A DNA stretch of 22,702 nt from a virus. The stretch covers positions 1 to 22,702 of the IMG/VR virus record IMGVR_UViG_3300025652_000599. The stretch is one strand, 5' to 3'. The translations under genes were made by a program, and so were the position numbers. Positions within the stretch are counted from its first letter, which is position 1; every line of letters starts with the position of its first letter. This document shows positions 5,774 to 20,795 of this stretch, one piece after another. A model generated the notes under the pieces. That model was not told where the DNA came from. It did not search any database and saw only the letters and a list, made by a program, of their open reading frames with translations.

Positions 5774-5970
5774 TGGCTAAAACCGTCTTTGACGTGCTTA
5801 AACAAAAACTCGACGAAGATATTTCGTCTGCAACTAGTTTTCTTGCTGGGGGGTCTGCTAAAGACTTCGCAGGATACAAGGAGATTGTTGGCTTAGTTCG
5901 GGGTCTCGAAGCCAGCAAGCAACACATTGAGGACCTCTCGCGTAATTATATGGATGATCAAGATGAATAA
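5773..5970 (+). CDS. Conserved hypothetical protein, 65 aa
   Basis: A small, mainly helical, slightly acidic protein with a GYKEIVGLVRGLE segment (about 34-46) and an acidic end DDQDE. No signal peptide, membrane segment or metal-binding cysteines. It sits between portal and co-chaperonin with overlaps at both ends (TAATG at the start, 8 bases at the end), so it is translated with the head genes. I recall similar short proteins at this place in marine phage genomes but know no function; a head-assembly accessory or connector role is inference from position. Confidence 0.8.
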   Translation: MAKTVFDVLKQKLDEDISSATSFLAGGSAKDFAGYKEIVGLVRGLEASKQHIEDLSRNYMDDQDE

Positions 5971-6418
5971 CACTCAGACTATTGAAGTACCTGATGCACT
6001 AAAAGCTAAGATGGCAGCAGAAGCAGCAGAAGCTGAACCTATTGCCGAAACTAGTAAACGTGAAGTCAGCGACGAGGAATGGGAAGCACAAATGCCCAAA
6101 CCTTCTGGCTACCGTTTGTTAATAGCCCTACCCGATGTCGAAGAATATTACCAAGGCAGTACCCTGCTTAAAACAACTGACCAGATGCACAAAGAGTACA
6201 TCATGTCGATTATGGGTATTGTTATAGATATGGGGGCAGACGCCTATTCAGACAAAGACCGTTTCCCTGAAGGCCCTTGGTGTAAAGAAGGGGACTATGT
6301 GATGTTTCGTATGAACACAGGCACACGGTTCAAAGTTAACGGGAAAGAATTTAGATTAATGAACGACGATTCTGTGGAAGCTGTAATCCCTGATCCTCGT
6401 GGCATTATGGCTGTATAG
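5963..6418 (+). CDS. GroES-like co-chaperonin
   Basis: Predicted Cpn10-fold cap for the host GroEL, probably needed to fold the phage capsid protein, as gp31 does for T4. The 151-residue product has a charged 45-residue N-terminal extension not found in GroES, then a GroES-like body at 46-151: SGYRLLIALPDV (first strand), YYQGSTLLKTT at 63-72 in the place of the mobile loop with TLL matching the Ile-Val-Leu that binds GroEL, MGIVIDMG (strand before the roof), KEGDYVMFRMNTGTRFKVNG (GD-V-F motif) and the ending MNDDSVEAVI, like GroES MSESDILAIV. ATG 5963 overlaps the previous stop; earlier in-frame starts at 5954 and 5927 are less likely. Its position between portal and scaffold supports a head-assembly job. 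The fold call is from motif alignment by eye. Confidence 0.82.
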   Translation: MNNTQTIEVPDALKAKMAAEAAEAEPIAETSKREVSDEEWEAQMPKPSGYRLLIALPDVEEYYQGSTLLKTTDQMHKEYIMSIMGIVIDMGADAYSDKDRFPEGPWCKEGDYVMFRMNTGTRFKVNGKEFRLMNDDSVEAVIPDPRGIMAV

Positions 6419-6428
6419 GAGAAAAATC

Positions 6429-7457
6429 ATGCCTTTTCAAAAAGTAGAATACGAGTTTCCTGATGAGGAGACAAAAACAAAACAAGACATCGAAGTGGAG
6501 GGTTCCAGTGCTATCGAAGTGGACATTGGAGGTAAGAAAGCTAAAGCCGAGGCTGAGAAATCTGAGCCTGTCGTTGAAAGTGAAGTGGATACTGATGACG
6601 ACGAATATGAAATTGAAGTGGTTGACGATACGCCGAAAGCTGACCGCAATCGTAAACCCTCTGATCCCCCAGAAGACGTTACTGATGACGAGTTGGAAGA
6701 CTATTCAGAGAAAGTGCGTAAACGGATACAGCACTTTAGTAAAGGCTATCACGACGAACGCCGTGCTAAAGAAGCGGCTTTCCGTGAACGTGAAGAGTTG
6801 GAGAAACTATCTCAACAACTTGTGGAAGAGAATAAAAAACTCAAGTCTAACGTAAACAAAAACCAAACAGCTTTGCTTGAACAAGCTAAGCGAAGTGCAG
6901 TATCTGAGCTAGAATCTGCTAAAAAGCAGTATAAAGATGCGTATGAAGCCGGAGACTCAGACGGTGTTCTTTCTGCACAAGAAAACCTAACAAATGCCAA
7001 GATTAAGGCCGATAGGTTAAATAATTTCAAGTTACCAGCTTTACAAGAAGATGAAACTAATGTAAAAATGGTACCTGAAACCACCCCACCGCCAGTGGAG
7101 GTTGATAAACGAGCACAAGCGTGGCAAGACGCGAACGGCTGGTTCAACCAAGACGTAGAGATGACAAGTTACGCGCTGGGGTTGCATAATAAACTTGTCA
7201 ACGAGGGCGTTAGCCCTCAGAGTGATGACTACTACGAGAGAATTGATTCTCGTATGCGACAGTTATTCCCCGAGAATTTCGAGGGGGAGGAAGTAGAAAA
7301 GCCGAAGAAGCAGTCAAATGTGGTTGCACCCGCTACGCGGAGCACTTCGCCTAAGAAAGTTAGGCTAACGCAAACACAACTAACGCTCTCTAAACGCTTG
7401 GGACTGACTCCCGAACAATACGCCAAACAGGTTGCACTAGATATGAGGAAACAATAA
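6429..7457 (+). CDS. Head scaffolding protein (putative)
   Basis: Expected to fill and shape the procapsid and then leave or be degraded. It has 342 residues: an acidic, low-complexity N-terminus (1-90, many Asp/Glu), a long coiled coil (about 85-200, heavy in Lys, Glu, Ala, Leu), a linker with TTPPPVEV, then a conserved-looking helix with AWQDANGWF (about 233-241) and YYERIDSRMRQLFPENF, and a basic C-terminal helix with KRLGLTPEQYAKQ, the usual type of capsid-binding end. AGGAGA (6417-6422) lies 6 bases before ATG 6429; an upstream in-frame start at 6399 lies inside the previous gene and is not needed. It lies two genes upstream of the capsid genes. No protease domain is visible. Confidence 0.82.
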   Translation: MPFQKVEYEFPDEETKTKQDIEVEGSSAIEVDIGGKKAKAEAEKSEPVVESEVDTDDDEYEIEVVDDTPKADRNRKPSDPPEDVTDDELEDYSEKVRKRIQHFSKGYHDERRAKEAAFREREELEKLSQQLVEENKKLKSNVNKNQTALLEQAKRSAVSELESAKKQYKDAYEAGDSDGVLSAQENLTNAKIKADRLNNFKLPALQEDETNVKMVPETTPPPVEVDKRAQAWQDANGWFNQDVEMTSYALGLHNKLVNEGVSPQSDDYYERIDSRMRQLFPENFEGEEVEKPKKQSNVVAPATRSTSPKKVRLTQTQLTLSKRLGLTPEQYAKQVALDMRKQ

Positions 7458-8538: not shown

Positions 8539-9447
8539 ATGGCTATTTCACGCGCCCAGCTCCTTAAAGAGCTACTTCCCGGTCTAAACGCATTGTTTGG
8601 GTTGGAATATGCAAAATACGGCGAAGAGCACGCCCAAATTTTTGAAACAGAATCCTCAGATCGCTCGTTTGAGGAAGAAACTAAGCTATCCGGTTTCTCA
8701 GCAGCACCTGTCAAAGACGAAGGCTCAGCCATCGAATATGACAATGCTCAAGAAGCATGGAGTGCACGTTACGTGCATGAGACGGTTGCGATGGGGTTCA
8801 GTATTACTGAAGAAGCCATCGAAGATAACTTGTATGACTCACTGTCTGCTCGTTATACAAAGGCCCTAGCTCGTGCGATGGCGTACACTAAGCAAGTTAA
8901 AGCTGCGTCTATTTTGAACAATGGATTTGCTGCTGGCACCACTTACGGTGACGGACAGTCATTGCTCTCAACAGCGCATCCACTTGTTTCTGGTGGCAGC
9001 AACTCGAACCGCCCAACTGTTGCGGCAGACCTTAACGAGACTTCTCTTGAAGCCGCCGTTATTGGTATTAGCCAGTGGACAGATGAGCGAGGATTGTTGA
9101 TCGCTGCTCAGCCACGGAAGCTAATCATTCCACCAGCACTGCAATTCGTTGCAACTCGTCTGTTGGACACTGATGGTCGTGTAGGTACTGCGGATAACGA
9201 TATTAACGCTCTTCGCAACAACGGTTCTATCCCTGAAGGATATGCCGTTAACCACTACCTCACAGACACCAATGCTTGGTTCTTGATGACTGATGTGCCG
9301 AACGGCCTGAAGCACTTTGTTCGTACTCCAATGTCTACATCTATGGATGCAGATTTTGACACGGGCAACTCGCGCTATAAGGCTCGTGAGCGTTATTCCT
9401 TCGGGGTTTCTGACCCACTAGGAATTTACGGATCACCCGGTGCGTAA
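8539..9447 (+). CDS. Major capsid protein, Mu gpT-like HK97 fold
   Basis: Main shell protein of the head, 302 residues. The N-terminal half has the helix LLKELLPGLNALFGLEY, then ETKLSGFSAAPVKDEG and a long helix SITEEAIEDNLYDSLSARY (about 93-111). Residues 135-150 carry DGQSLLSTAHPL, a hallmark that I associate with Mu gpT-like major heads. The C-terminal half, with LIIPPALQFVATRLL and a closing SFGVSDPLGIYG, fits the P-domain and A-domain of HK97-fold capsids. There is no obvious N-terminal protease-cleaved delta domain, consistent with a separate scaffold. AGGAGGG before ATG 8539 is the strongest ribosome site in the window, as expected for the most abundant protein. A strong terminator follows 6 bases after the stop. 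Confidence 0.92.
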   Translation: MAISRAQLLKELLPGLNALFGLEYAKYGEEHAQIFETESSDRSFEEETKLSGFSAAPVKDEGSAIEYDNAQEAWSARYVHETVAMGFSITEEAIEDNLYDSLSARYTKALARAMAYTKQVKAASILNNGFAAGTTYGDGQSLLSTAHPLVSGGSNSNRPTVAADLNETSLEAAVIGISQWTDERGLLIAAQPRKLIIPPALQFVATRLLDTDGRVGTADNDINALRNNGSIPEGYAVNHYLTDTNAWFLMTDVPNGLKHFVRTPMSTSMDADFDTGNSRYKARERYSFGVSDPLGIYGSPGA

Positions 9448-9552: not shown

Positions 9553-10023
9553 ATGGGTACTACTACATTTTCTGGTCCTATCCGGGCTGGCAACATTCGT
9601 AACACTAACGGCACCACAGTAGGTACTGACGTAGCAAACGTCGGCTACGTTGTCATGTGCCAATCCTATACAGCCGACTTATCTGGCGGCGCACTTGCTG
9701 CGGTTGTCACCGATATGGTCATTCCCGCTAACTCTAAAATCGTTAACATTATTGTTGATTTAGCTGTTGCAGCTAACGCTACTACTAACATTAGTGTTGG
9801 TGATACTGTTGGCGGTGCTGCTACATACATTAACGCTCTCGCTTCAGGAACAACCGTAGGCATCAAGGCCCTTGGTGTTTCTGGTGGTGGAACCCTTGCT
9901 TGGGGTAACACAGGAACTTCTGACGAGCGTTTAACTGTTACTTCTTCCGCAGCTACTAATGCGGGTAGTGCAGTAATTACTGTAATGTATGCACAGGCGT
10001 TTAACACTGCAATTCAACCGTAA
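9553..10023 (+). CDS. Putative virion beta-structure protein, 156 aa
   Basis: A Thr/Ala/Gly/Val-rich protein with almost no charged residues, expected to be a beta-sandwich or barrel. It begins MGTTTFSGPIRAGNIRNTNG, a start I recall in proteins coded right after capsid genes of marine phages, followed by GTDVANVGYVVMCQS and a strand-rich middle with VIPANSKIVNIIVDL (about 56-70). The closing ITVMYAQ is also strand-like. AGGAGA lies 6 bases before the ATG. It is the first gene after the terminator and promoter candidate. It is probably a capsid fibre, decoration or head-tail surface protein; which one cannot be seen. Confidence 0.76.
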   Translation: MGTTTFSGPIRAGNIRNTNGTTVGTDVANVGYVVMCQSYTADLSGGALAAVVTDMVIPANSKIVNIIVDLAVAANATTNISVGDTVGGAATYINALASGTTVGIKALGVSGGGTLAWGNTGTSDERLTVTSSAATNAGSAVITVMYAQAFNTAIQP

Positions 10024-10038
10024 ACGAGAGGTGATAAC

Positions 10039-10323
10039 ATGGCTGCTAATTTAGTACGCGCATTTAACTTCTCGCAAGGTGATACTGCGGCTCTCGTTGG
10101 CCCAAACCGTACTCGCATATTAGGGGTATTGGTTAACGCTGCCGCTGCATGTACGTTCCAATTGCGTAATGGAACTGCTAGCGGGGACATACTTTTGGAC
10201 CTCACATTACCTGTAGGCTGGAACGACGTGTATATACCCGCAGATGGTATATTAGCTCGTGAAGGCTGTTTTGTTGCCGCACTTACTGGTTCTGGTAACA
10301 AAATAACTCTGATACTGGAGTAG
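10039..10323 (+). CDS. Small putative virion protein, 94 aa
   Basis: A short, beta-type protein with segments LVRAFNFSQGDTAALVGPN, GVLVNAAAACTFQLRNG (about 29-45) and a closing TGSGNKITLILE. It resembles small domains that decorate phage particles, with single Cys near 38 and 76. GAGAGGTG lies 6 bases upstream of the ATG. Stop and next start are separated by 3 bases. The gene follows another small beta-type protein, so both may be parts of the same surface structure. No function can be assigned from sequence alone. Confidence 0.74.
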   Translation: MAANLVRAFNFSQGDTAALVGPNRTRILGVLVNAAAACTFQLRNGTASGDILLDLTLPVGWNDVYIPADGILAREGCFVAALTGSGNKITLILE

Positions 10324-10326
10324 GTC

Positions 10327-10638
10327 ATGCGGTCTTACTATAAAAGCGGAGGCTCGGTTAAGAAGTCGCCCGCTTGGACTCGTAAGGAAGGCAAGAGTGA
10401 ATCTGGTGGCCTGAACAAAAAAGGTGTTGCTAGTTATCGTAAGGCTAATCCCGGCAGTAAGTTAAAAACTGCCGTTACCACGAAACCTAGTAAACTCAAA
10501 AAAGGTTCTAAGGCTGCTAACAGACGTAAGTCCTTTTGTGCTCGCATGAAAGGTATGAAGAAGCGTAACACAAGCTCTAAGACGGCTAATGATCCAAATA
10601 GCCGTATCAATAAGAGTTTACGGAAGTGGAATTGCTGA
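10327..10638 (+). CDS. Very basic small protein, DUF6321-like
   Basis: A 103-residue protein with about 30 Lys/Arg and only three acidic residues, so it should bind nucleic acid. It starts MRSYYKSGGSVKK, followed by AWTRKEGKSESGGLNKKG (16-33), then RRKSFCARMKGMKKR (66-80) and the end SLRKWNC, a pattern I recall as DUF6321 in phages. Two Cys (about 71 and 103) are present. It is the first of five overlapping genes for small proteins; its TGA shares bases with the next ATG (TGATG). The MRSYYK start recurs in two neighbours. Candidate jobs are DNA compaction in the head or ejection with the genome; the family name is from memory and the function unknown. Confidence 0.8.
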   Translation: MRSYYKSGGSVKKSPAWTRKEGKSESGGLNKKGVASYRKANPGSKLKTAVTTKPSKLKKGSKAANRRKSFCARMKGMKKRNTSSKTANDPNSRINKSLRKWNC

Positions 10639-11102
10639 TGCCCGCTAAATCGAAGAAACAGCAGAAGTTTATGGCAGCAGTAGCAAATAATCCCAAGTTT
10701 GCTAAGAAAGTTGGGGTATCTCAAAATATAGGAGAAGAGTTTATGAAAGCTAAGAAATATAACATGGGTGGGATGATGGCTAATGTACCTGAATCAGGCC
10801 CTAGGAAAAAGAAGAAGCCCGCCCCTCGTGCCCCGTACGATGATAGTGGCGTTAATGTAGGTGGTGGCCCAAAAGGTGGCCCTAAACCCAGTCCTAAAGG
10901 CACTGGTGGTGTTATGGCAGGGCCAAACCCTATGACAGGCGGTCCAATGCCCCCTAAAAAGAAAAAACGTGCCCCAATGGGTATGGGCCAAGATAGAGGT
11001 GGCGCTATGCCTATGATGAAAAAAGGCGGTAAGGTTCGCGGTTGCGGTATGGCTAAGCAAGGCGTTCGTAAAGCCAAAATGGTAACAATGAAGGGCGCAT
11101 AA
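10638..11102 (+). CDS. Basic Gly/Pro/Met-rich protein, DUF3008-like N-terminus
   Basis: A 154-residue protein. Residues 1-35, MPAKSKKQQKFMAAV and following, match a small conserved domain I recall as DUF3008. The middle (about 55-125) is low-complexity Pro, Gly, Lys and Met, probably disordered. The end has MKKGGKVRGCGMAKQGVRKA (127-146), a basic motif with one Cys that ends many phage proteins of this kind. ATG 10638 overlaps the previous stop (TGATG); an upstream start at 10626 lies inside the previous gene. Overall charge is strongly positive. Position and charge suggest a genome-associated virion protein. The function is unknown. Confidence 0.78.
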   Translation: MPAKSKKQQKFMAAVANNPKFAKKVGVSQNIGEEFMKAKKYNMGGMMANVPESGPRKKKKPAPRAPYDDSGVNVGGGPKGGPKPSPKGTGGVMAGPNPMTGGPMPPKKKKRAPMGMGQDRGGAMPMMKKGGKVRGCGMAKQGVRKAKMVTMKGA

Positions 11103-11266
11103 TGCGTAGTTACTATAAGAAAAGCAGTAGTGGATGCGGGTACAAAAAGGGCGGGTCTGTAAAAGATTCGTGCTATAGGAAGGTAAAGGCAAGTTATAAA
11201 GTCTTTCCTTCCGCATACGCATCCGGTGCTATTGCTAAATGCCGGAAGAAAAAGGCTGGTAAGTAA
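11102..11266 (+). CDS. Tiny basic Cys-containing protein, 54 aa
   Basis: A gene easily missed for its size. The ATG shares its first base with the previous stop (TAATG), and its own TAA shares its last base with the next ATG, so it is enclosed by perfect start-stop overlaps. The product starts MRSYYKKSSSGCG, has Cys at 12, 24 and 47, and carries YKVFPSAYASGAIAKCRKKK near the C-terminus, a motif I recall in other viral and phage basic proteins. About one quarter of residues are Lys/Arg with one acidic residue. The shared N-terminus with genes at 10327 and 11266 supports that it is real and belongs to the same group. Function unknown. Confidence 0.8.
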   Translation: MRSYYKKSSSGCGYKKGGSVKDSCYRKVKASYKVFPSAYASGAIAKCRKKKAGK

Positions 11267-11571
11267 TGCGTACATACTACAAGTCTGGTGGTAAAATACG
11301 TAAAACAGCCAAAGGAGCAGCATTAAAACGCTGGTTCAAAGAGGACTGGAAAGACGTTAGCACCGGAAAGGCTTGTGGTAGGAAGAAAGGAGATGGGCGA
11401 GGAACCCCCTATTGCCGACCTTCTAAACGAGTTTCTTCTAAGACTCCTAAGACTTCTGGTGAGATGTCTAGCTCTGAGAAGAGTAAGAAGGTAGCGGAAA
11501 AGAAACGCTTGGGACAACCTGCGGGTAAGCCGCGTAGAGTATCCCCAGCCAAACGTAAGGGGAAAAAGTGA
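11266..11571 (+). CDS. Very basic small protein, DUF5872-like
   Basis: A 101-residue protein, about one third Lys/Arg. It starts MRTYYKSGGKIRKTAKG, followed by LKRWFKEDWKDVSTGKACGR (20-39) and GTPYCRPSKRVSSKTP (47-62), a pattern I recall as DUF5872, with Cys37 and Cys50 and nearby Arg/Lys. The last 35 residues are a Lys/Arg/Pro/Ser tail resembling histone-like tails. Start and stop overlap the neighbours (TAATG and TGATG). It shares the MR(S/T)YYK start with two genes upstream. Nucleic-acid binding is very likely from charge alone; DNA packaging or ejection roles are inferred. Confidence 0.8.
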   Translation: MRTYYKSGGKIRKTAKGAALKRWFKEDWKDVSTGKACGRKKGDGRGTPYCRPSKRVSSKTPKTSGEMSSSEKSKKVAEKKRLGQPAGKPRRVSPAKRKGKK

Positions 11572-11906
11572 TGGAGATTTTTCAAAACGGTAGGTTCTCA
11601 ACAGGAGAGCCAGTATACCAAATAGGTGTTAAACAAGCTGATGACACCTACGACATTAAAGTCTATGACCTGATGACTAAAGCACAGGCCGAGGCTAAGC
11701 TCGTATCTATGGGTGTCAAATCTACACCTGCCAAAAAACCTAAGAAAGCAGCGACTCCTAAAGTCCCTGACTACTCGAACATGTCCAAAACACAACTTGA
11801 GAAACTTATGCGTAAGTATAATATCGAGTTGGACCGTCGTAAGAGTAAAGCAGCTCTTTTAAAAGAAGTTGACGCGTTCTTCTCAGGAGAATGGGCAATC
11901 TCATGA
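11571..11906 (+). CDS. Hypothetical protein with SAP/HeH-like C-terminus
   Basis: A 111-residue protein with two parts. Residues 1-50 look like a small alpha/beta domain (GEPVYQIGVKQADDTYDIKVYDL). A Lys/Pro/Ala linker (about 52-66) leads to a helix-extended loop-helix segment, NMSKTQLEKLMRKYNIELDR then KSKAALLKEVDAFF (69-103), typical of SAP, LEM or HeH DNA-binding motifs found in phage structural proteins. AAGGGG lies upstream of ATG 11571, and the start overlaps the previous stop (TGATG). GTG 11568 is a possible but unneeded start. It closes the chain of small overlapping genes, and its stop overlaps the next ATG (ATGA). A DNA-contacting virion protein is the best guess. Confidence 0.78.
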   Translation: MEIFQNGRFSTGEPVYQIGVKQADDTYDIKVYDLMTKAQAEAKLVSMGVKSTPAKKPKKAATPKVPDYSNMSKTQLEKLMRKYNIELDRRKSKAALLKEVDAFFSGEWAIS

Positions 11907-12829
11907 CAACATCAGGTACCACTACATTCAATATGGACTTCACGGAGATCGCTGAAGAAGCGTGGGAACGTGCGGGCCGCGAGTTGCGTTCAGGCTACGA
12001 TCTACGTACTGCTCGTCGATCTATGAACTTAATGACGATTGAGTGGCAAAACCGTGGTATTAACATGTGGACAATAGAGCAAGGCTCTCTTGACCTCGTG
12101 CAAGGGCAATCAACATATGCTCTACCTGACGATACCATTGACTTAATGGAGCATCAAATACGCACGGGCGCGGGTAATACTTCGTTACAGTCTGATCTTA
12201 CTATAAGTCGTATTAGTGTGAGCACTTACGCGTCTATCCCTAACAAGTTAACACAAGGTAGACCAGTACAACTTTTTATCCACAGGAATAGCGGACAAAC
12301 TTATCCTGTAGGAATTACACTAGCGGCTACAGCGTCGAGTACAGACACTACTATTACTTTAAGCGGTGTCTCTGACTTACCACCCGCAGGTTTTGTTAAG
12401 ATTGAAGACGAAATAATAAACTATGGCAGTATTGACGGTAACGTCTTACAGAACTGTTTTAGAGGGCAGCAAGGCACAACAGCCGTTGCACATACAGTGG
12501 GTGGCGCTGCCATTCCCGTGTATTGGGAACAAGTCCCTGCGGCTACTGTATGGCCTATTCCTGACGGCACGCAAAGCTACCAGCTTGTCTATTGGCGTAT
12601 GCGTCGTATTGAAGACGCGGGTAGTGGCATACAAACCGCAGATATGAATTTTAGATTTTTCCCCTGTATGGTTGCGGGGTTAGCGTATTATATTGCTATG
12701 AAAGACCCAGAGCTTATTGAACGTGTGGGTATGTTAAAACAGATTTATGACGAACAATTTGCCCTAGCTGCGCAAGAAGACCGTGAAAAAACTTCTGCGC
12801 GTTTTGTGCCTAAAATAGGTAGGTTATAA
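11903..12829 (+). CDS. Putative head-tail adaptor protein with an inserted domain
   Basis: A 308-residue protein probably attached below the portal. The N-terminal part, DFTEIAEEAWERAGRELRSG (12-31) to LTQGRPVQLFIHR (116-128), is helical then strand-rich, of a type I recall near adaptor genes in marine phages. The C-terminal part from VWPIPDG (216) to the closing REKTSARFVPK restores that pattern with YWRMRRIEDAG (230-240). Between them, about 129-208, lies a beta-type segment with FVKIEDEIINYGSIDG and FRGQQGTTAVAHTVGGA, like short repeated domains of phage tail proteins, so it looks inserted. ATG 11903 overlaps the previous stop; AGGAGA (11885-11890) is 12 bases away, longer than usual. ATG 11891 touches AGGAGA directly and is less likely. 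Confidence 0.76.
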   Translation: MTTSGTTTFNMDFTEIAEEAWERAGRELRSGYDLRTARRSMNLMTIEWQNRGINMWTIEQGSLDLVQGQSTYALPDDTIDLMEHQIRTGAGNTSLQSDLTISRISVSTYASIPNKLTQGRPVQLFIHRNSGQTYPVGITLAATASSTDTTITLSGVSDLPPAGFVKIEDEIINYGSIDGNVLQNCFRGQQGTTAVAHTVGGAAIPVYWEQVPAATVWPIPDGTQSYQLVYWRMRRIEDAGSGIQTADMNFRFFPCMVAGLAYYIAMKDPELIERVGMLKQIYDEQFALAAQEDREKTSARFVPKIGRL

Positions 12830-13206: not shown

Positions 13207-13374
13207 ATGAATGTATTTGGAATGAAAAAAGTCAAAGTCGAAAAAGACAAAGGTGTGTACCCATGTAAACACGCACCAAAGCCTAACATGACTGGCGTTA
13301 AAACTACGGGAGTAAAAATCCGTGGTACAGGTGCGGCTACAAAAGGAACTATGGCTCGCGGGCCAATGGGGTAA
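13207..13374 (+). CDS. Tiny basic protein, 55 aa
   Basis: A gene below usual size limits. AGGAG (13195-13199) lies 7 bases before ATG 13207, and the stop lies 3 bases before the next ATG, so the gap between neighbours is filled precisely. The product begins MNVFGMKKVKVEKDKG, has a single Cys in YPCKH, and ends with TTGVKIRGTGAATKGTMARG followed by PMG, a Gly/Thr/Lys motif I recall from short phage proteins beside adaptor genes. About one quarter of residues are Lys/Arg. No membrane segment. Function unknown; probably a virion or assembly component. Confidence 0.78.
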   Translation: MNVFGMKKVKVEKDKGVYPCKHAPKPNMTGVKTTGVKIRGTGAATKGTMARGPMG

Positions 13375-15359: not shown

Positions 15360-18300
15360 ATGACAACACAGTACACTTCGACACTTAAACTAGCCCTTCC
15401 TGTCCAAGGGGAACTCAGTGGTACATGGGGGGATGTTGTAAACGACAATATCACTTCTATGATTGAGCAGGCCATTGTCGGGCGTGCAGTCATTAACACG
15501 TGGTCGAGTAACTCCCATGTGCTGACTACCGCTGATGGTACAACCTCTGAATCGCGTTGTGCGATGCTAGAGTTCACCGATACAGGATCAAATCTTACTG
15601 GGGCAGCGACTGTGGTATGCCCTACAGCCGCTAAAATCTATATTGCTAAGAATGCTTCGGGACAAGCCGCCACGCTTAAAACCTCTGGCGGCTCGGGTAT
15701 TGCGATACCAAACGGCAAAACAATGTTTCTTTTCTGTGACGGTACTAACGTCGTAGAAGGCGCTACAAATATCCAATCGCTATCTGTTGGTGGGTACACA
15801 GTCTCTCTTGCGGGTAATTTAACAACCGCAGCGGCGTTTACAACGGCTGGAGCGAATGCACTTACGTTAACAACTACAGGTGCGACTAACGTAACTTTAC
15901 CTACAACAGGCACATTAGCTACGCTTGCGGGTACAGAAACACTTACGAACAAGACCCTGACAGGGCCTACTATCTCGTCACCAACACTGACGGGTTCTAT
16001 TTCAGCGACCGATTTGACTATTTCTGGTAATACCACGATTGGTGATGCCGCGTCAGATACGTTGACTGTTAACAGTACAATTACGTCACATCTTCTGTTT
16101 ACCGATAATACTTACGATATAGGCGCAACGGGTGCTACACGCCCCCGCAACTTGTTTCTATCGGGTAATGCCACTGTTGGTGGGAATATTGTTCTTACAG
16201 GTGGTATTGATGTTACTGGCAACTTTGGTGTTGACGGTAATTTTGATGTAAATACTGACAAATTTACTGTTACCGCATCGAATGGTAACACTGCTGTAGC
16301 AGGAACACTTGGAGTAACGGGTGCAACTACTGCAACTGGTGGCCTTAATGTCGATACGATCAGTGAAATTACTTCTGCTGGTGGTGTGACTATTGATGGT
16401 GTTGTGCTTAAAGATAGTGGAATAACTGCTACCGGCACAATCAAGCTGGATGGTAACTATCCTACTAATGCAGGTAACGTAGCTTTAGGTGATACCGCTT
16501 TAGATAGCTTATCAAGCGGTGCTAGTAATACCGCGATTGGTAGTGCTGCTTTAACGGCTAATACTTCAGGAGATTCCAATACCGCTGTTGGAAACGTAGC
16601 TGCAACTTCCAACACTACAGGCGACAACCTTTCTGCCTTTGGTAGATATGCTCTTTACGGTAATACAACCGGATCAAATAACACAGGGTTGGGTTTCCAA
16701 TCTTTGATGGGCAACACCACCGCAAGTAACAACACTGCTGTGGGGTATCAATCGCTTTTTGCAAACACCACAGCGGATTATAATACTTCTGTCGGTACAT
16801 CTTCTTTAACAGATAATACAACTGGGGCACATAACACGGCCCTTGGGGCAGATGCTCTTGGTAATAATACAACGGCAGATAATAATACAGGAATAGGTTC
16901 GTCTGCACTGTACATAAATACCACTGGGGCAAACAATACGGCTATTGGTAGAAGTGCTTTAGCCGCAAACACCACAGGTTCTCAAAACGTAGCCGTGGGT
17001 GCTTTAGCAGGAGATGCTATAACGACTGGCACACTAAACACGATTCTTGGCAGTTCTACGGGTTCTGGTATTACAACAGGAGCAGGCAACACCTTACTTG
17101 GGTACGCGGCAGGAGGAGTAGAAACCACAGGCAGTAATAACGTTATTGTCGGCCAAGCAGGACAAGCACAGCTTACCGTTAATGACACAGTTGCAGTCGG
17201 TGATGGTGCGTTACAAACAAACACTAAGTCCTCTAAAAACACAGCAATTGGTAGAAGTGCTTTAAGAACTCTTAATCACACTAGTGCTACCGATGCCTAC
17301 AATACAGCTTTGGGCTATAACGCTGGTTATGCAGTAACCACAGGCGCAGAAAACACCCTCATCGGTGGTCTTGCAGGTGATGCCTTAACTAACTCAGATA
17401 GAAACGTAGCATTAGGATTTGCCGCTTTAGGCGCTGAAATATTAGGGCAGTACAGCACAGCTATTGGTTGGAACGCTTTAGGCGTACAATCAAACAGCAG
17501 TGCGGCAAATGCTCTTAATACCGCAGTAGGCTACAACTCTGGAGCCGCAGTAACCACAGGTGTCCAAAACACGTTTATTGGCGGCCTTGCAGGAGACGCC
17601 GCCACCACCGCCAACAACAACACAGCGGTGGGTTATAATGCTTTAACCACAAGCACTACAGGCGCAGAAAATGTTGCGGTAGGTGTTGAAGCAGGAATGA
17701 GTGTTACTACTGGTTCTGAGAACGTAATGCTCGGTGTGTATGCAGGCTCTTCTAATGCCTCTACTGTCAACGGTATTACTACAGGTTCAGCAAACATAGC
17801 CATCGGTCTTGGTGCTATGGCAGGAGATGGAACAGCCGTAACAGGTTCTAATAATATCGCTATTGGTAGATATGCAGGGCAAAAATTTACATCTGGTAGT
17901 CGTAACATTGCTATTGGACAAGGAGCCTTAGATGCTAACACTACTGCATCAGGCAATGTTGCGGTGGGGCACCTTGCATTAGGCGCAACCACTACAGGTG
18001 AACAGAATGTAGCGTTTGGAACTCAAGCGGGAACCGCTCTAACTACCGGCGCACATAACACATTTATTGGATCGTACAGCGGCCTCAACACCACGACAGC
18101 AAATTACAACACTGTTGTCGGTAACTACGCACTAGCTATAAATACCAGCGGTGAAAGAAATACCGTACTGGGTCGTGCGGCTATGTACGCAAATAGCTCA
18201 GGAAGCTATAACACGGCTGTTGGGTATGATTCGTTAGCTGGAAATACAACAGCAAGCAACAACACCGCTGTTGGTTATCAGGCCCTATACGTTAATAGTA

Positions 18301-20795
18301 CAGGCACAAATAATGCGGCGCTTGGCTATAGAGCATTACATGCCAACACCACCGGAGGCTCGAACACTGCGATAGGTGTCGATGCCCTGCTAACCAACAC
18401 GACGGGTGAAACTAATACCGCAGTGGGTAGAAGGGCCATGGAGGACAACACCACTGGCTCTAATAACATCGCTATGGGCTACGGTTCGCTGCGAAACAAC
18501 ACCACTGGTAGCAGTAACGTTGCCCTTGGTTATTTGGCACTGGACGCTGCTACAACCGCTTCCAACAACGTTGCTGTCGGCTTTATTGCACTTGATGCAA
18601 ACACAACGGGTTCTAGTAATGTCGCCATCGGTTACTCCGCCCTTGGAGAAAACACTACCGCATCTTTTAACACCGCAGTGGGTCATTTGGCTTTAGCGCA
18701 AAATACGACAGGTAGTGCAAACGTAGCCATAGGTTATCTTGCGGGTGACGCTTTGACGACCGGCGGCTCCAACGTAGCTATAGGGTATAACGCTTTAACG
18801 ACAGAAGATGCGCATGGCGGTAACGTAGCCGTAGGTACTAACGCGGCTAGAGACTTAAATGCTGGAGCCACGGGCTATCACACTGCTATAGGCCATAATG
18901 CTGGCCTTAACATGACGACTGCCATTCAAAACACTATAGTGGGTAGTTTGGCTGGTGACGCGCTTACGACCGGCGGAAACAACGTAGTCGTTGGTAATGG
19001 CGCTTTGACGAGCGATTTACTTGGCCTTGGAACAACTGTTCTTGGCACACAGGCCATGTCAAATCAGGTCATGAATAATTCGTATTCGTTCAATACAGCG
19101 GTTGGATTTCAGTCCCTTTATTATAACGTGACCGGCCAAAACAACACGGTACTGGGTTATCGTGCAGGATTTGGTAGTGTTTCTGGAGCCAGCACTAACA
19201 CTCTTACTGCGATAGGTAGTAAAGCGGCTCAAAATATTACGACCGCTACAAACAACACCAATGTCGGAGCATCTTCTGGATTAAGTACAACCACAGGCTC
19301 ATCCAACACGAGTGTGGGATCAAGTACCTTATATGCCAACACGACCGGTGCCAACAACACGGCTGTGGGTTATCTAGCGGGTTATTCAAACTCAACTGCT
19401 GAAAACAATACCTTTGTTGGTCAAGCGGCAGGTTATTCAAACAATACCGGAGCGCAAAATACTTTTGTTGGCAGGATTTCTGCTGATGCGAATACAACAG
19501 GCGCAGACAACGCCGCCTTGGGGTATTGGAGCTTATCCGACAATACGACCGGTGCTTCCAACACGGCTCTAGGAAGCAGGGCGATGACCGGCAATACTAC
19601 GGCAGATTACAACACCGCCGTGGGTTTTGAGGCTTTACACACAAATACCACTTACACGGGCAACACCGCTGTAGGCGCACAAGTATTACGCACAACTAAT
19701 GGGGGCATAGGAAACACTGCTGTCGGCACTTATCACCCCGGCAGTCGGAATGCTGCAATGAGGTTTAACACTTCTGGGTCTTACAATAGCGCCTTTGGTC
19801 CGGGGTCTTTAGAGGCAAATACGACCGGAAATAATAACGTAGCTATCGGGTATTCAACATTATCCGCTAACACCACAGGTGTTAATAACGTGGCGATTGG
19901 TCTTAGTGCTGGGGTTAAGAATGTATCGGGTACATACAATACCTTTGTTGGCGATAAGGCGGGGCATGAAAGCGTAGTTGCTGGCTCTGCGGCAAACACC
20001 TTTATTGGGCAATTTGCAGGCTACTATGTAACTACCGGAGCCAATAACACTATTCTTGGAGGTTTTGGTGGTAACTCTGGTGGCGTAGACATTCGCACCT
20101 CAAGCAATAATATTATCTTAGCAGATGGTGCTGGTAATCCTCGGCTGATGATAAACAGTGACGGAAACATCACAAGCAGTCCGGGCAATGTCGCCAGCTT
20201 TAGTCGCCAAAACGCTGGTGTAACAATACGAACAAATGATGGCGGCACGTTACAATGTTCAAGAAACAGTGGTACGCCGCTTGAAATTAATCGTATCGCT
20301 AATGATGGTACGCTTGTTCAATTTTTCCAAGACGACAGTAATGAAGGCAATATTTCTGTAAGCGGAAGCACCGTAAGTTATAATGGTTTTGCGGGTCGGC
20401 ACGAATCATCTGGTATACCCGCAAATACTCCAAAAGGCACTGTTGTTAGTACAATAGATGAGCTTGATGTTTATCCTACTAGCTCCCCAAAAGCAGGTCA
20501 GCCAAGACTAGATCACGCTAAAGTGCAGGTTTCTAGTTCTGCGGGGGATGCTTGCGTCTACGGTGTGGTAGATATGTTCGATGACGACGAAAAAGTTATG
20601 GTTGTGTCTGTTGGTATTGGCTCTGTTCGAGTGACAGGAGCTTGCAGCAAAGGCGATCTGCTCGAAAGTAACGGTGACGGTACGGCGGTCGTACAATCTG
20701 ATGACATTATTAGAAGTAAAACAATTGGTAAAGTAACAATAGGAGACAGCACCGTTGCTGAAAAACTTGTATCCTGCGTACTTTACTGTGGCTAA
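15360..20795 (+). CDS. Giant tail fibre with YadA-like repeats, 1811 aa
   Basis: Host-recognition fibre, probably a trimer. The N-terminus, LALPVQGELSGTWGDVVND (about 11-29), matches the virion-attachment start of marine phage fibres. Residues about 130-370 are a Thr/Gly/Ala beta shaft with LTNKTLTGPTISSPTLTG, typical of phage fibres. Residues about 370-1570 are some seventy repeats of a 17-residue unit NTTGxxNTAxGxxALxx, like the left-handed beta-roll head of YadA-type adhesins. The C-terminal 220 residues are non-repetitive: a strand-rich part with LMINSDGNI, then KGTVVSTIDELDVYP to VTGACSKGDLLESNGDG and the end, resembling the cap domains of phage fibres that end in a KGDLL beta-barrel; no peptidase S74 catalytic motif is seen. 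GAGG lies 8 bases before the ATG. At 5.4 kb it is a quarter of the window. Confidence 0.9.
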   Translation: MTTQYTSTLKLALPVQGELSGTWGDVVNDNITSMIEQAIVGRAVINTWSSNSHVLTTADGTTSESRCAMLEFTDTGSNLTGAATVVCPTAAKIYIAKNASGQAATLKTSGGSGIAIPNGKTMFLFCDGTNVVEGATNIQSLSVGGYTVSLAGNLTTAAAFTTAGANALTLTTTGATNVTLPTTGTLATLAGTETLTNKTLTGPTISSPTLTGSISATDLTISGNTTIGDAASDTLTVNSTITSHLLFTDNTYDIGATGATRPRNLFLSGNATVGGNIVLTGGIDVTGNFGVDGNFDVNTDKFTVTASNGNTAVAGTLGVTGATTATGGLNVDTISEITSAGGVTIDGVVLKDSGITATGTIKLDGNYPTNAGNVALGDTALDSLSSGASNTAIGSAALTANTSGDSNTAVGNVAATSNTTGDNLSAFGRYALYGNTTGSNNTGLGFQSLMGNTTASNNTAVGYQSLFANTTADYNTSVGTSSLTDNTTGAHNTALGADALGNNTTADNNTGIGSSALYINTTGANNTAIGRSALAANTTGSQNVAVGALAGDAITTGTLNTILGSSTGSGITTGAGNTLLGYAAGGVETTGSNNVIVGQAGQAQLTVNDTVAVGDGALQTNTKSSKNTAIGRSALRTLNHTSATDAYNTALGYNAGYAVTTGAENTLIGGLAGDALTNSDRNVALGFAALGAEILGQYSTAIGWNALGVQSNSSAANALNTAVGYNSGAAVTTGVQNTFIGGLAGDAATTANNNTAVGYNALTTSTTGAENVAVGVEAGMSVTTGSENVMLGVYAGSSNASTVNGITTGSANIAIGLGAMAGDGTAVTGSNNIAIGRYAGQKFTSGSRNIAIGQGALDANTTASGNVAVGHLALGATTTGEQNVAFGTQAGTALTTGAHNTFIGSYSGLNTTTANYNTVVGNYALAINTSGERNTVLGRAAMYANSSGSYNTAVGYDSLAGNTTASNNTAVGYQALYVNSTGTNNAALGYRALHANTTGGSNTAIGVDALLTNTTGETNTAVGRRAMEDNTTGSNNIAMGYGSLRNNTTGSSNVALGYLALDAATTASNNVAVGFIALDANTTGSSNVAIGYSALGENTTASFNTAVGHLALAQNTTGSANVAIGYLAGDALTTGGSNVAIGYNALTTEDAHGGNVAVGTNAARDLNAGATGYHTAIGHNAGLNMTTAIQNTIVGSLAGDALTTGGNNVVVGNGALTSDLLGLGTTVLGTQAMSNQVMNNSYSFNTAVGFQSLYYNVTGQNNTVLGYRAGFGSVSGASTNTLTAIGSKAAQNITTATNNTNVGASSGLSTTTGSSNTSVGSSTLYANTTGANNTAVGYLAGYSNSTAENNTFVGQAAGYSNNTGAQNTFVGRISADANTTGADNAALGYWSLSDNTTGASNTALGSRAMTGNTTADYNTAVGFEALHTNTTYTGNTAVGAQVLRTTNGGIGNTAVGTYHPGSRNAAMRFNTSGSYNSAFGPGSLEANTTGNNNVAIGYSTLSANTTGVNNVAIGLSAGVKNVSGTYNTFVGDKAGHESVVAGSAANTFIGQFAGYYVTTGANNTILGGFGGNSGGVDIRTSSNNIILADGAGNPRLMINSDGNITSSPGNVASFSRQNAGVTIRTNDGGTLQCSRNSGTPLEINRIANDGTLVQFFQDDSNEGNISVSGSTVSYNGFAGRHESSGIPANTPKGTVVSTIDELDVYPTSSPKAGQPRLDHAKVQVSSSAGDACVYGVVDMFDDDEKVMVVSVGIGSVRVTGACSKGDLLESNGDGTAVVQSDDIIRSKTIGKVTIGDSTVAEKLVSCVLYCG
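16470..20070 (+). repeat. About seventy 51-base coding repeats in the fibre
   Basis: In-frame 51-base units encode the 17-residue pattern NTTGxxNTAxGxxALxx. A minority are 1 to 15 residues longer, mainly those ending LAGDA(L/I)TTG. The core NTTG is written with many codon combinations (AATACAACC, AACACGACG, AACACTACA and others), so DNA repeats are much less similar than the protein repeats. Limits are approximate because the units fade at both ends. Confidence 0.88.

Follow-up and report, generated by a model that had tools for sequence, protein, structure and literature searches.

Why do three neighbouring genes, placed shortly after the capsid gene of a phage, encode proteins that share a nine-residue start and differ in everything that follows? 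The genes lie at 10327, 11102 and 11266 of the window, which is the whole 22,702-nt stretch analysed here (IMG/VR record IMGVR_UViG_3300025652_000599, positions 1-22,702; 26 genes). The starts MRSYYKSGG, MRSYYKKSS and MRTYYKSGG were recovered in the reading frames exactly as the first-pass annotation had claimed, and its statements that the remainders differ and that the products are mostly very basic were also borne out: the bodies are DUF6321, a SAYAS-type module and DUF5872, and the last protein of the cassette is the one that is mildly basic (Table 1). In the wider set of related loci, MRxYYKxGG opens small, very basic proteins of at least seven unrelated kinds, whose genes lie next to that of the capsid protein.

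The head genes of the window are ordered as terminase large subunit, portal, GroES-like protein, acidic scaffold-like protein, two more genes and major capsid protein (MCP), followed by two variable genes, the small-protein cassette (10327-11906) and an adaptor-like gene. The product of 6399..7457 is probably a scaffold and that of 11891..12829 probably an adaptor. The MCP is 72% identical to that of Planktothrix phage Pag-Yong1 and 64% to that of HTVC023P. In relatives, the gene at the place of 9553..10323 is annotated as minor capsid or cement protein, and in the relative DSL-LC04 a gene annotated 'Pam1 adaptor protein' comes after the cassette. The MCP and portal of the window had no useful sequence match in the PDB, and the label 'Pam1-like' therefore rests on the annotation in DSL-LC04. 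Further downstream (15360-20795), a tail-fibre-like protein of 1811 aa contains dozens of NTAxGxxAL..NTTG repeats resembling YadA-type repeats.

Table 1. Features of the window and of related loci (positions are those of the window unless a locus is named).
Feature	Position	Strand	Evidence or remark
GroES-like co-chaperonin gene	5927-6418		between portal and scaffold; synteny kept across lineage
Acidic scaffold-like protein, proposed docking partner	6399..7457	+	between GroES-like gene and MCP; pI 4.98
MCP, upstream border of cassette	8539..9447	+	phrog_371, E 1.3e-21
Two variable genes between MCP and cassette	9553-10023, 10039-10323 (9553..10323)	+	position
Small basic protein, DUF6321 body	10327..10638	+	PF19846, E 1.1e-18, 68 bits (cut-off 28.5); pI 11.25
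Start MRSYYKSGG on DUF6321 gene	10327..10353	+	reading frame; pLDDT <50 at residues 1-3 and 5-9
Lysine-rich protein starting MPAKSKKQQKFM, without MRxYYK	10638..11102	+	phrog_16759, E 2.5e-15; pI 10.77
Small basic protein, CYRKVK..FPSAYASGAIAKCRKKK (SAYAS-type) module	11102..11266	+	phrog_727, 1.5e-10; phrog_3477, 2.6e-8; pI 10.15
Start MRSYYKKSS, long form running on SGCGYKKGGSV	11102..11128	+	reading frame
Small basic protein, DUF5872 body	11266..11571	+	PF19197, 5e-14, 53.3 bits (cut-off 27.5), profile 46-111 of 116; pI 10.92
Start MRTYYKSGG on DUF5872 gene	11266..11292	+	reading frame; pLDDT <50 at residues 1-14
Untagged small protein, last of cassette, mildly basic	11571..11906	+	pI 9.5
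Adaptor-like protein, downstream border of cassette	11891..12829	+	syntenic in lineage genomes
KVRGxGAATKG / KVRGCGMAKQGVRKAKM motif sites	13207-13374; 11020-11102; L326:12395-12562
RGMG-start examples, at least five unrelated small bodies	L384:7375, L424:6523, L430:8851, L409:4674, L062:1064	+

When the 26 window genes were compared for shared starts (at least four of residues 2-6), four pairs were found, three of which are formed by the three tag genes, and none of 20,000 shuffles within proteins matched the observed number of pairs. Body homology was rejected as the cause of the shared start because the three bodies belong to separate families. The 11102 product also touched PF19197 (DUF5872) below the gathering cut-off (14.7 bits, profile 10-39). 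In AlphaFold2 models the tag has low confidence and is predicted to be unstructured, and the DUF6321 body is helical in a model of modest quality (pTM only 0.46). The DUF6321 and DUF5872 profiles had no sequence match in the PDB; the DUF6321 model, read with the same caution, had no fold match there and matched mainly DUF6321 proteins in BFVD.

The gene between the first two tag genes had been connected to them through KKGGKVRGCG. The motif is present, near the C-terminus (MMKKGGKVRGCG), but the gene starts MPAKSKKQQKFM, contains an internal KYNMGG, and is linked to the tag only by the loose GGxV core. Over its N-terminal 41-45 aa it gives matches to phrog_22033/25121, annotated 'virion structural protein'. 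The corresponding N-terminal MPAKSKKQQKFMAAVANNPKFAKKVGV segment (10638-10770) also opens the larger 'virion structural' families phrog_22033 (845 aa) and phrog_25121. A C-terminal motif, KVRGxGAATKG / KVRGCGMAKQGVRKAKM, recurs among the small basic proteins, both within the cassette and close to the adaptor gene.

The spread of the tag was followed with a DNA-pattern scan that was not bound to any body type. In related phages it yielded 124 distinct tagged ORFs, far above chance, and all except a few truncated or frameshifted ones encode proteins of a limited number of module families, or a close fusion of these. The first-pass annotation had proposed a search for MRxYYKxGG before unrelated domains in phages, and had held that confinement to homologous proteins, or a broad occurrence outside phages, would speak against a tag. 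The bodies that follow it in IMG/VR loci number at least seven (DUF6321, the SAYAS/SAYAN module, DUF5872, NWTKQKW, NEAGNYTKP, CNKPRRTPSH and the KHHSSEH module), and about 85,000 prokaryote genomes gave four pattern matches, three of which were read, none being a module protein. Lineage head genes are present at 117 of 118 tag-sampled loci (MCP identity to the window 65-99%). The carriers were found in one lineage of Pam1/HTVC023P-like short-tailed marine phages (podoviruses), in the cassette between MCP and adaptor. Lineage records of 40-66 kb hold at most three occurrences each, within about 3 kb between these two genes; the pattern is missing from 2 of 18 lineage records, and a reversed control pattern matched three times in total. 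The conserved positions (R, Y, Y, K, G and G) use every synonymous codon, so selection acts on the peptide, and a DNA- or RNA-level cause of the conservation is unlikely. The annotation had known of no description of such a system, and a literature search for the start motif likewise found none; the bodies DUF6321 and DUF5872, however, are already Pfam families, the former without a mention in the literature searched and the latter with one.

The tag behaves as a separable part. Over the DUF6321 tree at least 14 changes of state were counted, of which supported branches force at least three, and over the DUF5872 tree four; both trees are built from few columns and have many unresolved forks. 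Such recurrent gain or loss on one and the same body marks the tag as a separable element. A tagged gene is present in 17 of 37 complete MCP-anchored cassettes. Close relatives begin the same bodies with MAKSPAW or MAVRKT instead, orthologous bodies occur without the tag at a locus whose MCP is 89% identical (L324), and a single genome can hold tagged and untagged modules together, so the tag is not obligatory. Intermediates between the two states include a long form such as MRSYYKKSSSGCGYKKGGSVK and the worn forms MFRRQFRSGS, MQCKKSYKSGG and MASGG. The strongest argument that the tag is not essential is that it is optional.

The bodies themselves are more widely distributed. Relatives of DUF6321 occur in 527 INPHARED phage records, mostly of cyanophages, and no MRxYYKxGG was found on a DUF6321 body among the INPHARED phage proteins inspected; the same bodies are found in cyanophages and pelagiphages without the tag. 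Among cultured phages, HTVC027P has a related start, MRSYYSEGG, on gp50, whose body is of DUF5872 type. In the T4-like cyanophage S-CREM2, ORF137 (108049-109521) contains DUF6321 and ORF160 (128342-129235) contains DUF5872-type and SAYAS modules, and the virion proteome of that phage contains both, ORF137 by 4 unique peptides and ORF160 by 7 (PMC10665884 Table 3). The module protein SSCSM1_29 is labelled as a virion protein in the record of S-SCSM1, a phage in which 45 virion proteins were identified by mass spectrometry (PMC9602691). Virion status is known for these homologous bodies in other phages, not for the tagged proteins themselves.

One close parallel is the capsid targeting sequence (CTS) of phage T4, which has the sequence MKTYQEFIAEA and ends at an (L/I)xE site of the prohead protease. 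The T4 internal proteins are otherwise unrelated small proteins with this short N-terminal peptide in common (PMC3012670), and ten N-terminal residues of IPIII are enough for packaging (PMC8402733). MRxYYKxGG resembles the CTS as one short N-terminal peptide on unrelated small proteins, here on at least seven bodies. It differs in sequence, has no E and no (L/I)xE cleavage site, is optional, and belongs to a lineage in which no S78 prohead protease (PF04586) was found in 14 records, some of them fragments, with a positive control; a search for S77 (PF03420) gave no match, its control being silent too. Because the sequence differs and the cleavage site is absent, MRxYYKxGG was not filed in the T4 CTS family. 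A second parallel is P22, likewise a short-tailed phage, whose ejection proteins gp7, gp16 and gp20 enter through the scaffold, gp7 and gp20 by their N-terminal parts (PMC8402733). An N-terminal docking address would, by analogy, be consistent with this scaffold-mediated loading, although no tag common to the P22 proteins is described there (PMC8402733) and no homology was noticed here.

The cyanophage module-chain proteins (DUF6321; phrog_727, phrog_3477), virion-linked in S-CREM2 and S-SCSM1, share their modules with the window and differ in arrangement: T4-like phages fuse them into one long protein with E-containing linkers and without MRxYYKxGG, whereas the lineage of the window encodes them separately, and several of these genes carry a start peptide of their own. 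In the fusions, 24 of the 27 modules are preceded by [VILMF]xE at a distance of up to 14 residues, compared with 28% of background positions in the same proteins, an enrichment whose significance the nominal p value overstates, the sequences being related. The T4 prohead protease prefers (L/I)xE, and, judged from their sequence, the sites before the fused modules would fit processing of the chain by a prohead protease, with small basic proteins as the products. Linkers resembling [VIL]xE|G/S/A join the DUF6321 and DUF5872-type modules in the T4-like loci L277, L327, L329, L276, L351 and L431. In the T4-like AG-345-E15 the same modules come after MKTFEQFTEG, which resembles the T4 CTS. The idea that all cyanophage module proteins carry such a start was dropped: it is clear in AG-345-E15 but not in S-SM1, RN05-S, S-CREM2 ORF137 or S-SCSM1, and most of the module proteins inspected begin without it. 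One fused chain would need one address, and many separate chains would need one each.

Sister cassettes use a second start, M(M)xxRGMG...[YF]xxGGxV, on the SAYAS module, NEAGNYTKP, LYANIHAK, SKPRP and DUF6321. Like MRxYYK it is an N-terminal peptide with the same GGxV joint, on overlapping bodies and in the corresponding cassette; it differs in sequence, is mostly carried by one gene per cassette and never stands beside MRxYYK. Among 120 distinct complete cassettes, a set partly sampled by the tag itself, 84 had only MRxYYK, 21 only RGMG, none both and 15 neither. The corresponding numbers in the MCP-anchored subset were 12, 13, 0 and 6 (Fisher p 1e-4, uncorrected for kinship), and the best MCP tree implies six or more switches between the start types. 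This exclusivity would also arise from replacement of whole cassettes. The best separator of the start types among about 300 MCP columns is residue 213 (gene 8539-9447), where 82 of the 83 MRxYYK genomes have G and 19 of the 20 RGMG genomes have L or Q; independent-pair contrasts on supported branches are only three, none discordant, and since these are too few, the residue is treated as a lead only. It is a quite doubtful, speculative extension that loading follows a lock-and-key code, in which MRxYYKxGG and RGMG...GGxV are alternative N-terminal addresses, one per genome, each fitted to a capsid feature (MCP residue 213), and T4-like phages instead use one fusion cut by the prohead protease.

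We give about an even chance to the reading that MRxYYKxGG is a lineage-specific N-terminal head-loading address, acting like the T4 CTS with another sequence and with no protease found. The tag would be a short flexible address peptide on interchangeable small basic virion proteins. While the procapsid assembles, it would attach every such protein to some part of the head, the likeliest candidates being the acidic scaffold and the capsid's inner face, and the docked proteins would be retained inside the head together with the DNA; no prohead protease that could remove the tag was found. What is seen directly is that unrelated bodies share the tag, that it is conserved at the protein level, repeatedly gained or lost, and sited in the head cassette, and that homologous bodies are in other virions; from these we infer the docking, its partner, the packaging and the fate of the tagged proteins. 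The sorting or docking tag of the first-pass annotation is upheld in part, as regards non-homologous bodies, occurrence in phages only (in the genome scan), the head-gene cassette and body relatives in T4-like virions, and weakened by orthologous modules that are tagless in close relatives.

The same optional tag would suit a peptide that merely sticks to DNA or capsid, with the modules reaching the head by DNA binding and the tag adding affinity only, in a protamine-like manner. The basicity expected of such condensers is present (pI 10.15-11.25), and many further lysine-rich proteins of the cassette contain a looser core, [YF]xxGGxV. A pattern of R2, K6 and conserved pairs of tyrosines and glycines is, however, more specific than charge, and other phages with the same basic bodies have no tag, so that this reading appears rather unlikely. 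The tag could also have no role in assembly and be a gene start spread by recombination between neighbours, under weak selection on translation or stability. The cassette is indeed highly mosaic, two tag genes of the window overlap their upstream neighbour at TAATG, and whole-cassette replacement could produce the exclusivity of the two starts. We nevertheless consider it unlikely, since codons vary freely among synonyms while the residues are fixed, so that neither DNA nor RNA sequence is what is being conserved, and since the same residues stand on non-homologous bodies across phages with MCPs 65-99% identical to that of the window.

Action after ejection, by localisation or host-target binding inside the host, would make the bodies injected proteins like those of T4, where diverse counter-defence proteins have only the CTS in common (PMC3012670); cassette repertoires do differ even among close relatives. 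DUF6321 has no recognised enzyme-like fold (no PDB match, from a modest model) and the bodies are common to cyanophages and pelagiphages without the tag, and we judge this explanation improbable.

For the preferred head-loading address, the existence of a specific partner can be put to a direct test, since the two start peptides exclude each other, and the tag, if it works in this way, would offer a short peptide by which cargo could be brought into capsids where no prohead protease was found. The tag lineage is related to the HTVC023P type, which PMC9599517 places among the most abundant pelagiphages. If the reading is true, several unknown protein families (DUF6321, DUF5872 and others) in hundreds of marine phage genomes would become accessible to study, and a tag that loads heads would be another natural cargo-address system besides that of T4.
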